Assembly: GCA_905479975.1 (NCBI GenBank)
Contig: CAJQOS010000015.1
Span: 1 to 62,239, forward strand
DNA from: an uncultured Puniceicoccaceae bacterium
Lineage (GTDB): Bacteria; Verrucomicrobiota; Verrucomicrobiia; Opitutales; Coraliomargaritaceae
Reading direction: 5' to 3'
DNA length: 62,239 nt
Shown here one piece after another: positions 6,758 through 11,929 of this stretch. Below the pieces are notes generated by a model that worked only from the letters and a program-made list of their open reading frames with translations, made no database searches and had not been told where the DNA came from. The translations under genes and the position numbers were made by a program. Position 1 is the stretch's first letter. Each line of letters begins with the position of its first letter.

Positions 6758-8833
6758 TTACGGCGCATCCACCCATTTGCCGTGCTCTTTGATCAGGTCG
6801 ATCAGGCGATCTAGTGCTTCTTCGGCGGGGACGTTATATTTTACGCATTCTTTGCCTACGTAGAGATTGATTTTGGCTGGGGCGCCGCCGACGTAGCCGA
6901 AGTCGGCGTCGGCCATTTCACCGGGGCCGTTGACGATGCACCCCATGATCGCAATCGTGACCCCTTTGAGGTGGTCGGTGCGGCTGCGGATGGTTTGCGT
7001 GACACTCTGTAAATCAAACAGGGTGCGGCCGCAACTTGGGCAGGCGATGAACTCGGTCTTGGTGATGCGGGCGCGGGCGCCTTGTAAAATATTATAGGCG
7101 AGTGTGGTGGCTTTGTTGAGCAGCGGTTCGGTCTCGATGCTGATCATGTCGCCGATGCCGTCGCAGAGGAGTGTGCCGCTGAGGATGCTGCTTTCGAGTA
7201 GGCGGTCGGAGTAGTAGGGGTTGGGCGCGAGTGTGTTGGTCAGCGTGTTGCGTATCCAAATCGGTGCGTCGGGCACGAAGGCTTGGGCGGCTTCGGCGAG
7301 GGCGCGGTAACTGCCGACGGGGTGACGGGGCGACTCTGATGCAGGGCATTCGCAAGCGGAGCCCCCACAAAGAATGAGGTTTTTGCTGCCCATGGGGGCG
7401 AGCTGTGCGCCGATCTCGTCGCGCAGGGCGTCGGCTTGGCAATCCATGGCAAAGTTGAAACCTTTGTCGCGGCAGAGTTGTAAGAGGTTGCTGGCGTAGA
7501 AGGCGTCTTCTTGCTCGATGTGTTGCAGAATCGTGATGCCTGCGAGGCCGTCTGTGGGCCATTCGTAGGCTTCGAGGTCGGTAATATCGACGTTCTCGGT
7601 GAGCTCTAGCACGAAGACTTGCACGACGCTGTGGAGGGCTTCGTGCAGTCCGGTGAATGCGGCGAGGTCGCCGCTGCTGTTGATGCCGAGTTGTAAGCCT
7701 TCGAGCTTACTTTCTTTGAGTGATGTCTGTGTGCTGCAGACGTCTTGAATGATTTCGGCGGTGGCGCTGATCGGGTGCGCTGTCTTGACGATGACTGCGG
7801 GGGCGACTTCGCCACCGATGCTGCAGTTCGGGCCGAGCTCGATCACGCGGGTGCTGCGACGGCGGAAGTCGAAGGGATCAATGCTGTCTTTGGACGGTTC
7901 GACGATGGGGGCCTCGGCTTGCTGCTCCCAGAGCGCCATTGCTTTGTCGGCGAGGTCGCGGGCAACGGGCACTTCGTAAATTGGGTCTTCGGTGAGGGAC
8001 ACGCGGATAGTGTCGCCGAGTCCATCGTTGAGGAGGGCGCCGATACCGATGGCGCTTTTGACGCGGGCGTCTTCGCCGTCGCCAGCCTCGGTCACGCCGA
8101 GGTGGAGCGGATAGTTCATGCCTTCTTCATCCATGCGGGCGGCGGCGAGGCGGTAGGCCTCGATCATCACCTTAGGATTGCTGGCCTTCATCGAGAGGCA
8201 AATGTCGTAATAGTTATGACTTTCGGCGATACGGATAAATTCGAGTGCACTCTCGACCATGCCGAGTGGCGAGTCGCCGTAGCGATTCATCAGCCGGTCG
8301 GCGAGGGAGCCGTGGTTGGTGCCGATACGCATGGCGCGGCCGAGCTCTTTGCAGCGCAGGACGATCGGGGTGAAGGCTTCGTGCAGACGCTCCAGTTCTT
8401 CGGCGTAGGCGGCGTCAGTATATTCGGTGACCGCGAATTTCTTTTTGTCGGCATAGTTGCCGGGATTGATGCGCACTTTCTCGACGTGGAGGGCGGCTTC
8501 CATCGCAGCAGAGGGCAGGAAGTGAATGTCGGCGACGAGCGGCACATCGCATTTCGCGGCGCGGAGTTTCTTGGAAATTTCGCCGAGTGCGGCGGCCGCG
8601 GCTTTGTTGGGCGCGGTGATGCGCACGATCTCGCAACCCGCTTCGGCGAGGCCGAGGGTTTGTGCCACGGTGGCGTCGACGTCCTGGGTGTTGGTCGTCG
8701 TCATCGATTGAATCCGGATCGGATTATTGCCGCCGATGGCGATATTGCCGACATGGATGACGCGTGAGTCGCGGCGCTTGGCGAGGAAGCGCGATGCGCA
8801 GTAATCGAGATTGGAAAGAGATGGCGTTGTCAT
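6758..8833 (-). CDS. ispG: 4-hydroxy-3-methylbut-2-enyl diphosphate synthase, long form
   Basis: IspG converts MEcPP to HMBPP in the MEP isoprenoid pathway using a [4Fe-4S] cluster. The N-terminal TIM barrel starts about residue 20 (VIHVGNIAIGGNNPIRIQSM). The cluster-binding end holds CPSCGRT at about 595 and GCIVNGPGE at about 630, giving three cysteines and the conserved glutamate. At 691 residues it is far longer than the E. coli type (about 370), because a roughly 270-residue insert separates barrel and cluster domain, as in plant, chlamydial and Bacteroidetes enzymes. It ends the uppS-cdsA-dxr-rseP-ispG gene order. The start ATG has no Shine-Dalgarno. Confidence 0.97.
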   Translation of the reverse strand: MTTPSLSNLDYCASRFLAKRRDSRVIHVGNIAIGGNNPIRIQSMTTTNTQDVDATVAQTLGLAEAGCEIVRITAPNKAAAAALGEISKKLRAAKCDVPLVADIHFLPSAAMEAALHVEKVRINPGNYADKKKFAVTEYTDAAYAEELERLHEAFTPIVLRCKELGRAMRIGTNHGSLADRLMNRYGDSPLGMVESALEFIRIAESHNYYDICLSMKASNPKVMIEAYRLAAARMDEEGMNYPLHLGVTEAGDGEDARVKSAIGIGALLNDGLGDTIRVSLTEDPIYEVPVARDLADKAMALWEQQAEAPIVEPSKDSIDPFDFRRRSTRVIELGPNCSIGGEVAPAVIVKTAHPISATAEIIQDVCSTQTSLKESKLEGLQLGINSSGDLAAFTGLHEALHSVVQVFVLELTENVDITDLEAYEWPTDGLAGITILQHIEQEDAFYASNLLQLCRDKGFNFAMDCQADALRDEIGAQLAPMGSKNLILCGGSACECPASESPRHPVGSYRALAEAAQAFVPDAPIWIRNTLTNTLAPNPYYSDRLLESSILSGTLLCDGIGDMISIETEPLLNKATTLAYNILQGARARITKTEFIACPSCGRTLFDLQSVTQTIRSRTDHLKGVTIAIMGCIVNGPGEMADADFGYVGGAPAKINLYVGKECVKYNVPAEEALDRLIDLIKEHGKWVDAP

Positions 8834-8905
8834 TTTGTAAAGGGTGCGCGAAGTTGAAAACGTGGCATCAAGCCCGCTCGATGCGGTGTGTTGCGTGTCG
8901 TTCGC

Positions 8906-9014
8906 ATTATTCTGCCACTAATTATTCTGCCCAATTAGCGTCGGGTTAGCTCTCCTGTCTAGGTGAGAAGCTATGACTACGTGGTTCTGGCAGAATAATT
9001 AGTGGCAGAATAAT
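8906..9014. repeat. perfect 26-bp inverted repeat, MITE-like element
   Basis: Arms at 8906-8931 and 8989-9014 are exact reverse complements, separated by 57 bp. Each arm is itself two copies of the 11-mer ATTATTCTGCC (or its complement) joined by ACTA/TAGT. The element is the main content of the 302-bp spacer 8834-9135 between ispG and rseP. No ORF is inside. It could fold into a long hairpin in RNA or be a small non-autonomous transposon; no target-site duplication is obvious. Confidence 0.85.
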
Positions 9015-9125: not shown

Positions 9126-9183
9126 GTTCTCCACATCACTCATTGATTTTCTCTGCGTTCTCCGCGTCCTCTGCGGTTAATTC
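9126..9183 (-). repeat. stuttering repeat (CGCAGAGGA words) overlapping rseP 3' end
   Basis: On the minus strand the words CGCAGAGGA, CGCGGAGAA and CGCAGAGAA follow each other, then GGAGAACCACGGATAA. This kind of accgcagag/cacgga sequence is a widespread dispersed element in environmental genomes, to my knowledge. Here it supplies the last codons of rseP (residues LTAEDAENAEKINE). Confidence 0.65.
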
Positions 9184-10608
9184 TTCATTGGTTGGCTCTG
9201 TCGGGTTGGCTTCTTCGACTTGAGCGGCTGGTGCTTCGTCGTCTTGGCCGATGCCCATGTCTTGGCCGACGCGTTTGACGTCGAAGAAGGAGACGTAGAT
9301 CACAAAGGAGAGGAGCATGACGATGCATGCGGTGTAGGCGCCTTCCATGACTTTACGTGGGAGTGGGCGGCCGAGGATTTTTGAAATGGTGGCAAACATC
9401 ATGTGACCGCCATCGAGCACGGGGATCGGTAGGACGTTGAAGATCGCGAGGTTGACGTTGATCAATGCGAGAAACCAGACGAGGTCGATCCAACCGTAGC
9501 GTGCCATGGCGGTGAGGCCGTGGACGATGCCGACGGGGCCGCTCATGTTGCGCACTTTGACGTCGGACTCCGTGTGCACGAGTGCGATGAGTGTGGACTT
9601 CATGGTGCGTGCCATTGCGCTGATCTGCTCGATCGGGTTGAGATGCACGCGCTCGGTTTGTGCTTCGTAGTAGTAAGCAAATCCGAAGCGTGGAGAGTCT
9701 TCGCCGCGGGCGATTCGTGGTTCGATCGGGAGAACGACTTCGTTGCCCTCGCGGAGCACGGTCACGTCGATCACGCCGCCTTTGTGGTTTTTCAGATAGA
9801 CGCTGAGGAAGGCTGATGAAGTGATGGGTTCGTCGTTGAGTTCAATCGGTTGATCGCCTGGGAGCATGCCAGCTTCAAAGGCGGGCATGTTTTCCTGGAC
9901 CATGCTGACGACGAGGTCGGTGCCTGGTTGTAGGGCGAGGGTGCGAATGTCTTCGGAGGTCACTAGCACAGGATAGGCGGTGACAGTGAGCTCTTCTTTG
10001 TCGCGTAGCACGGTGACTTCGACGCTTGGGCGTCCGTCGTCTTCGCGTCCGGTGCTGGTCATGACTGAATTTTGCAGGTGCATCCAGTCGTTGATGTGCT
10101 CGCCGTTGATTTCTAGGACGGTGTCGCCTGATTGCAGGCCGGCTTCGAATCCAGGGCCTGCGACGATTTCGTCGTCTGAATTAACGATTTGTTCCGGGAC
10201 GACGTCGATGATGGTTGTTTTGACAATGTCGCGTCCGACGCCCCAGAGGATGAGGGAGAGGCAGAAGGCGAGAATGATGTTAAAGACCGCGCCCATGACG
10301 GCGACGATCATTTTGTCGGCGTAGGAAATCGGGGGGAGGTCGTCGGCTTCCTCTTCTTCGCCGCCTTCGAGTCTGCCCATGTCGGCGAGCTGTGGGAGGG
10401 AGACATAGCCACCGAGTGGTAGGAGCGAGATGCGGAAGTCGGTGCCGCGCCATTTCCAGCCGAAGAGGCGCGGGCCGAAGCCGATCGAGAAGCGGTCGGC
10501 GATGAGTCCACGCTTTTTAGCCGCGATGAAGTGGCCGAGCTCGTGAATGAAAATACAGAAGCTCAGTGCGAGGAGCGCGATGGCGATATAGAAGATGTTG
10601 AGAAGCAT
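9136..10608 (-). CDS. rseP: RIP site-2 metalloprotease RseP
   Basis: RseP is an inner-membrane zinc protease that cuts transmembrane substrates such as anti-sigma factors or signal peptide remnants. The zinc site HELGH is at residues 22-26 in the first membrane segment; the second zinc-binding segment NVLPIPVLDGGH is near residue 390. Two PDZ-like regions lie between them (about 130-215 and 225-300), with further membrane segments around 90-120 and 350-440. The last 14 residues are encoded by a dispersed repeat and are unlikely to be functional. Neighbours are dxr upstream (139 bp) and ispG downstream, the order conserved in many bacteria. A natural stop was probably replaced when the repeat arrived. 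Confidence 0.95.
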   Translation of the reverse strand: MLLNIFYIAIALLALSFCIFIHELGHFIAAKKRGLIADRFSIGFGPRLFGWKWRGTDFRISLLPLGGYVSLPQLADMGRLEGGEEEEADDLPPISYADKMIVAVMGAVFNIILAFCLSLILWGVGRDIVKTTIIDVVPEQIVNSDDEIVAGPGFEAGLQSGDTVLEINGEHINDWMHLQNSVMTSTGREDDGRPSVEVTVLRDKEELTVTAYPVLVTSEDIRTLALQPGTDLVVSMVQENMPAFEAGMLPGDQPIELNDEPITSSAFLSVYLKNHKGGVIDVTVLREGNEVVLPIEPRIARGEDSPRFGFAYYYEAQTERVHLNPIEQISAMARTMKSTLIALVHTESDVKVRNMSGPVGIVHGLTAMARYGWIDLVWFLALINVNLAIFNVLPIPVLDGGHMMFATISKILGRPLPRKVMEGAYTACIVMLLSFVIYVSFFDVKRVGQDMGIGQDDEAPAAQVEEANPTEPTNEELTAEDAENAEKINE

Positions 10609-10696: not shown

Positions 10697-10705
10697 ACTG
10701 GGATC

Positions 10706-10747
10706 GGCTGCTTTAGCTGCCGACGTTGGCTTGGTGGATGTAGGCAG

Positions 10748-10758
<11 letters not shown>
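10706..10758. repeat. 16-bp perfect inverted repeat containing the dxr stop codon
   Basis: GGCTGCTTTAGCTGCC at 10706-10721 and its exact complement at 10743-10758 are separated by 21 bp. The right arm carries the final Leu-Leu codons and TAG stop of dxr. It may act as a transcription-attenuating hairpin or be a dispersed palindromic element that replaced the original gene end. Confidence 0.8.

Positions 10759-11929
<1,171 letters not shown>

Follow-up and report, generated by a model that had tools for sequence, protein, structure and literature searches.

A non-coding inverted-doublet repeat between ispG and rseP of a Puniceicoccaceae bacterium, probably tied to a long GxxExxY nuclease

In REPtrons and TIRtrons, a tyrosine transposase (RAYT or TIRYT) is combined with REPs or with terminal inverted repeats, and MITEs are defined as short, non-coding, intergenic elements with terminal inverted repeats of 15-30 bp (PMC3733652). 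Short tandem-plus-inverted repeats occur in many bacterial genomes, and their maker is not known. The GxxExxY family (TIGR04256, PF13366) is named after a motif, with no function, role or repeat association described in the open-access papers found.

The window analysed here is a stretch of 62,239 nucleotides from an uncultured Puniceicoccaceae bacterium (contig CAJQOS010000015.1). Its ispG/rseP gap contains a palindrome with a total length of 109 bp, which is arranged as follows:

6758..8833, - strand: ispG (context; TIGR00612), start codon 72 bp from the left arm
8906..8931, - strand: left arm, two GGCAGAATAAT (read on the - strand) with a 15-bp period and the spacer TAGT
8932..8988, no strand: core of 57 bp, non-coding; both doublets turn their outer side to it (tail-to-tail)
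8989..9014, + strand: right arm, two GGCAGAATAAT with a 15-bp period and the spacer TAGT
9136..10608, - strand: rseP (context; TIGR00054), stop codon 121 bp from the right arm

The two 26-nt arms, 57 nt apart, are 100% complementary, and each consists of ATTATTCTGCC-ACTA-ATTATTCTGCC or the complement with all four 11-mers exact, confirming an earlier note on this DNA that described a perfect 26-bp inverted repeat of doubled 11-mers. The core is also without coding, as that note stated, because the 61-aa mechanical ORF there (8764-8949), which crosses the left arm and enters the core by 18 bp, overlaps ispG and is without support as a gene. Among perfect inverted repeats of at least 16 nt with arms within 300 bp, the 26-nt pair is the only one in the window, and its chance expectation is approximately 3e-9. 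An intrinsic terminator was considered and rejected, as the stem of 26 bp is A+T-rich and no T run follows either arm. The element resembles MITEs and falls within their definition, being short and non-coding with 26-bp terminal inverted repeats. It differs from them in that each end is a tandem doublet; neither a target duplication nor, in a survey covering the Y1_Tnp family, a parental insertion sequence encoding a known transposase was found. These ends are common to the nuclease-bearing unit described below.

The 26-mer arm has a single site in its own genome, that of the window element, and no exact match elsewhere in the genome collection, from which records close to the window's own were possibly excluded. 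When relatives were scanned for two GGCAGAATNAT separated by a 4-bp spacer with 2 mismatches allowed, doublets were detected in 16 of 92 genomes, with up to 14 per genome, and a reversed-pattern control was nearly empty. The search for arms and doublets that the earlier note had proposed yielded a single-copy arm and a scattered doublet. The copies are intergenic facing pairs, lone doublets and 15-bp arrays, mostly short and non-coding. The pattern which the note regarded as contrary to its reading, namely the same site in all relatives with drifting arms and no other copies, was not what we found. The two window doublets are arranged tail-to-tail (-- ++), whereas most GGCAGAATNAT pairs are head-to-head; close pairs in Opitutus-like genomes are mostly tail-to-tail, as in the window, and reversed doublets also surround the long nuclease gene at three loci (L187, L194 and L204). 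At the core side of both window doublets there is a stretch of ACGTG or ACGCTAATT, resembling stretches beside other copies.

Several of these copies lie in distinctive settings. Several doublet pairs lie between the genes of a viral contig (L032; 3437-3541, 7968-8071 and 8867-8933), which is a possible vehicle for them; a scan of viral contigs found no long nuclease there, even though doublets are present. In G027 (L034, 6829-9124), consecutive gaps between ordinary genes hold three doublet pairs whose cores are near-identical, and 16-bp arrays are added in two of the three. A 1.1-kb pair in G066 (L017) was discarded as a gene-carrying element, its content being an 83-aa ORF with no Pfam match.

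The element is absent from the ispG-rseP gap in all 11 congeners. The gap varies strongly among them and is too divergent for an exact empty site to be read. The G008 copy, examined as an empty-site test, gave no clean boundary, and no target duplication was seen at the window flanks (TTCGC / CCACT), for which there is no clean empty site to compare. The "recent arrival" of the earlier note is unproven, as neither a target duplication nor a dated insertion was found. Of the two identities that the note had offered, "small mobile element" is preferred over "protein-binding array" in view of the dispersed doublets, the absence from 11 congeners and the bracketing of a protein gene elsewhere, although the congener-gap and G008 comparisons demonstrated no mobility event. 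The gap also harbours other repeats. A short GxxExxY gene lies there in G007, G008 and G009 (L058, L056 and L057) and, in decayed form, in G011 (L064), and these genes are bracketed by inverted TTAACCGCAGAGGACGCAGAG-type (CTCTGCG-type) repeats, which are a second repeat family at this gap. TCGCGGGGTAAACCCGCTCGCTAC-type repeats are present in the gap of G002, G004, G005 and G006 (L061, L059, L060 and L066), where the units of G006 form a tandem array of about ten.

Among the six doublet-richest members of family f1, five also have doublets at a gene for a PD-(D/E)XK nuclease of approximately 265 aa at the junction of two genes read from sequence as addB and addA. This gene is the long form of GxxExxY (PF13366). 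It is present in G013, where a doublet pair surrounds a 257-aa GxxExxY gene, and in G016, G023 and G027, and is decayed in G041, always between addB and addA with adjoining doublets, which were seen on both sides in the first four genomes and on one side in G041. The doublets lie immediately 5' of the start codon and 3' of the stop codon. The earlier note had suggested looking for copies with a transposase between such arms; a protein gene is indeed bracketed elsewhere, but it encodes a PD-(D/E)XK nuclease rather than a transposase of a known family. The five carriers have 4-14 doublets per genome versus 0-5 in 39 other family members, and 2-14 versus 0-5 (n = 39) after their own flanks were removed (Mann-Whitney p 1e-5, kinship ignored). 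Within genus g3, again with own flanks removed and kinship ignored, the carriers have 2 and 6 doublets versus at most 1 in 13 others. Some genomes carry doublets though they are without the long nuclease gene, among them G001 with 5. The long nuclease is also absent from the window genome (a 95% complete assembly) and from the 11 congeners, so the local link between enzyme and repeat is indirect.

In a wider set of genomes, a scan with the long-protein alignment gave 33 long and 47 short homologues, the long ones nearly all from the PVC group. The share of genes flanked by exact inverted repeats of at least 11 bp is 27 of 31 for the long form (control placements, 0.8%) and 15 of 41 for the short form (controls, 1.6%). 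Under a stricter criterion, a doublet with a period of 14-17 plus an inverted partner across the gene, 25 of 30 long genes are positive (the other five miss the doublet criterion) versus 0 of 275 control placements. The words flanking long genes vary and include GGCAGAATNAT, GACAGAATNAT, AACAGAATAAT, GTCAGAATAAT, GGCAAAATCAT, GGCAGAAAAAT, GGYAGGAARAT and GGCAGGGGAAT. At four loci with the word AACAGAATAAT (L190, L191, L195 and L199), the long nuclease unit lies directly 5' of a gene read as ExbD-like. Short GxxExxY genes from many phyla (L210-L256) have inverted doublets in 19 of 32 cases versus 3 of 276 control placements, with words of 8-10 bp and a period of 9-10 bp, such as CACGGATT, CCACAGAT and CCGCTAAT.

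The dispersed words largely match those at the nuclease genes. In a 14-genome panel, GGYAGGAARAT doublets number 23 in G096 and 9 in G104, whose own nucleases are so flanked, 10 in the related G105 and 0 in the 11 other genomes; this word also occurs in copies with a spacer of 6, which a 4-bp-spacer scan misses. GGCAGAAARAT has 27 copies in the planctomycete G095, which has the same word at its own nuclease, and 6 in 13 others. In a 12-genome panel, AACAGAATNAT is confined to the nuclease gene flanks in its two genomes and is absent from 10 others. GGCAGAATNAT doublets number three in Coraliomargarita and five in Pontiella; Pontiella is an exception, with AACAGAATNAT at the flanks of its own nuclease gene. 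G105 is another exception unless a second nuclease is present, as GTCAGAAAAAT is the word beside the nuclease sampled from it (L194), although the genome is full of GGYAGGAARAT. The nuclease genes and the repeats are linked, and with these exceptions they co-vary across lineages. This largely shared variation of enzyme and repeat from lineage to lineage suggests a kind of repeat-spreading system not described before.

PF13366 matches all 20 aligned members, in which the presumed catalytic residues D79, E88, K90 and Q102 are invariant. In a confident AlphaFold model (pLDDT 92.9), the fold of the N-domain matches PD-(D/E)XK nucleases, with 4ic1 at Z 8.7; Holliday-junction resolvases, Cas4 and AddAB gave Z 5-7, which is middling taken alone. 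The conserved D...ExK site and the modelled fold together place the long form among predicted PD-(D/E)XK nucleases. Assignment as a Cas4 was rejected, as the similarity is weak and at fold level only. The C-domain has the same helix/strand order as the N-domain, which hints at an internal duplication, although the profile comparison between the two is weak (probability 9.7%). Other PD-(D/E)XK nucleases, namely Tn7-type TnsA and homing endonucleases of this fold, serve mobile elements, and GxxExxY is set beside them by fold class; unlike Tn7-type TnsA, it has no partner transposase visible between the doublet repeats.

Taken together, the window element is probably an orphan, non-coding member of a dispersed inverted-doublet repeat tied to the long GxxExxY nuclease of approximately 265 aa. 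The full element would consist of a doublet, the gene for the long PD-(D/E)XK nuclease and an inverted doublet. The doublet may be a protein-binding site of the nuclease, which would recognise it and cleave there; copies would then spread through the cut and host repair, or through transposition, and bare doublet pairs would thereby be mobile in trans, in a MITE- or REP-like manner. Such a move, or else horizontal transfer, considered because the viral contig carries several such copies, may have brought in the window copy, with the enzyme now missing. In RNA, its arms would pair as a stem of 26 bp, located between the rseP and ispG frames, and any effect on expression would be secondary.

It is unlikely that the doublets are instead MITEs that belong to an ordinary transposon or to a RAYT system, with the long nuclease a passenger caught between two copies. 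Such behaviour of REPs and MITEs is already known (PMC3733652), the copies are mostly short and non-coding, and the window genome has 17 Y1_Tnp matches; but one nuclease family is bracketed in many lineages by different words, for which chance capture is hard to accept. Moreover, the GGCAGAATNAT doublet is present at none of 30 Y1_Tnp (RAYT) loci from the family, in a transposase survey covering Y1_Tnp alone, and G016 has 14 doublets with no Y1_Tnp match, leaving a RAYT unsupported as the mobilising enzyme. Nor was the doublet found at any of 30 short GxxExxY loci from the family. Quite unlikely, too, is a role of the doublets as regulatory binding sites, for example in autoregulation of a nuclease operon, with the other copies being operators under selection. 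Their position directly before the start codon, and the resemblance of tandem 11-mers with a 15-bp period to protein sites, would agree with it. However, there are inverted copies beyond the stop codon as well, the dispersed ones occupy unrelated intergenic spots, arrays and a viral contig, and the two-sided bracketing of the nuclease gene across lineages is left unexplained. Very improbable is a palindrome kept for RNA, as an rseP/ispG stem-loop for processing or stability: the strand folds much more stably than shuffled sequence does (z -9.4), and this fits transcription of both genes, which lie on the - strand, but the corresponding gap of 11 congeners lacks the element, no Rfam match to it exceeded the gathering score (two tRNAs were the sole matches in the window), and neither the doubled 11-mers nor the dispersed family is explained.

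A nuclease-linked dispersed repeat would resemble REPtrons and TIRtrons in having one gene within inverted repeats while the same repeats are dispersed gene-free, and in repeats that are species- or lineage-specific and form intergenic pairs and arrays. It differs from them in its enzyme, an unrelated PD-(D/E)XK nuclease in place of an HUH/Y1 transposase, and in its repeats, tandem 11-mer doublets with a 14-17 bp period rather than GTAG-tagged stem-loops. Membership in REP/RAYT was rejected, as the bracketed gene is a PF13366 member and no Y1 transposase; a gene within dispersed repeats is found in the related full elements, not in the gene-less window copy. Within GxxExxY, the doublet-bracketed gene is a member whose long form adds a second domain.

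Somewhat more speculatively, short and long GxxExxY proteins might be enzymes of an undescribed, widespread repeat-propagating class. Each would be a stand-alone PD-(D/E)XK nuclease specific for tandem doublets of a short word, which would stand on both sides of the nuclease gene and, through the enzyme, give rise to non-coding copies. The period would be approximately 10 bp for the short form and 14-17 for the long form with its two domains; repeats of the CACGGATT and CCACAGAT types beside short GxxExxY genes would then be members. The window repeat is best placed among enzyme-linked dispersed repeats, with a fair chance that the class itself is new. We found no description of a nuclease-repeat system in open-access literature, and an earlier one elsewhere is possible; the 11-mer strings led, as far as titles tell, only to unrelated papers. 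The consistent, largely lineage-specific pairing of GxxExxY with repeats offers a testable role for both. If this role is true, a nuclease-based route to repetitive intergenic DNA would exist in bacteria beside the tyrosine-transposase route.

Other repeats are present near the window element. The 3' end of rseP in the window genome contains a CTCTGCG-type repeat, and its final codons (9147-9180) are a CTCTGCGTTCTCCGCGTCCTCTGCGG repeat that gives the protein tail TAEDAENAEKINE. Downstream of the next gene, at 10701-10763, lies an imperfect inverted repeat of 24 bp with a loop of 15 bp.
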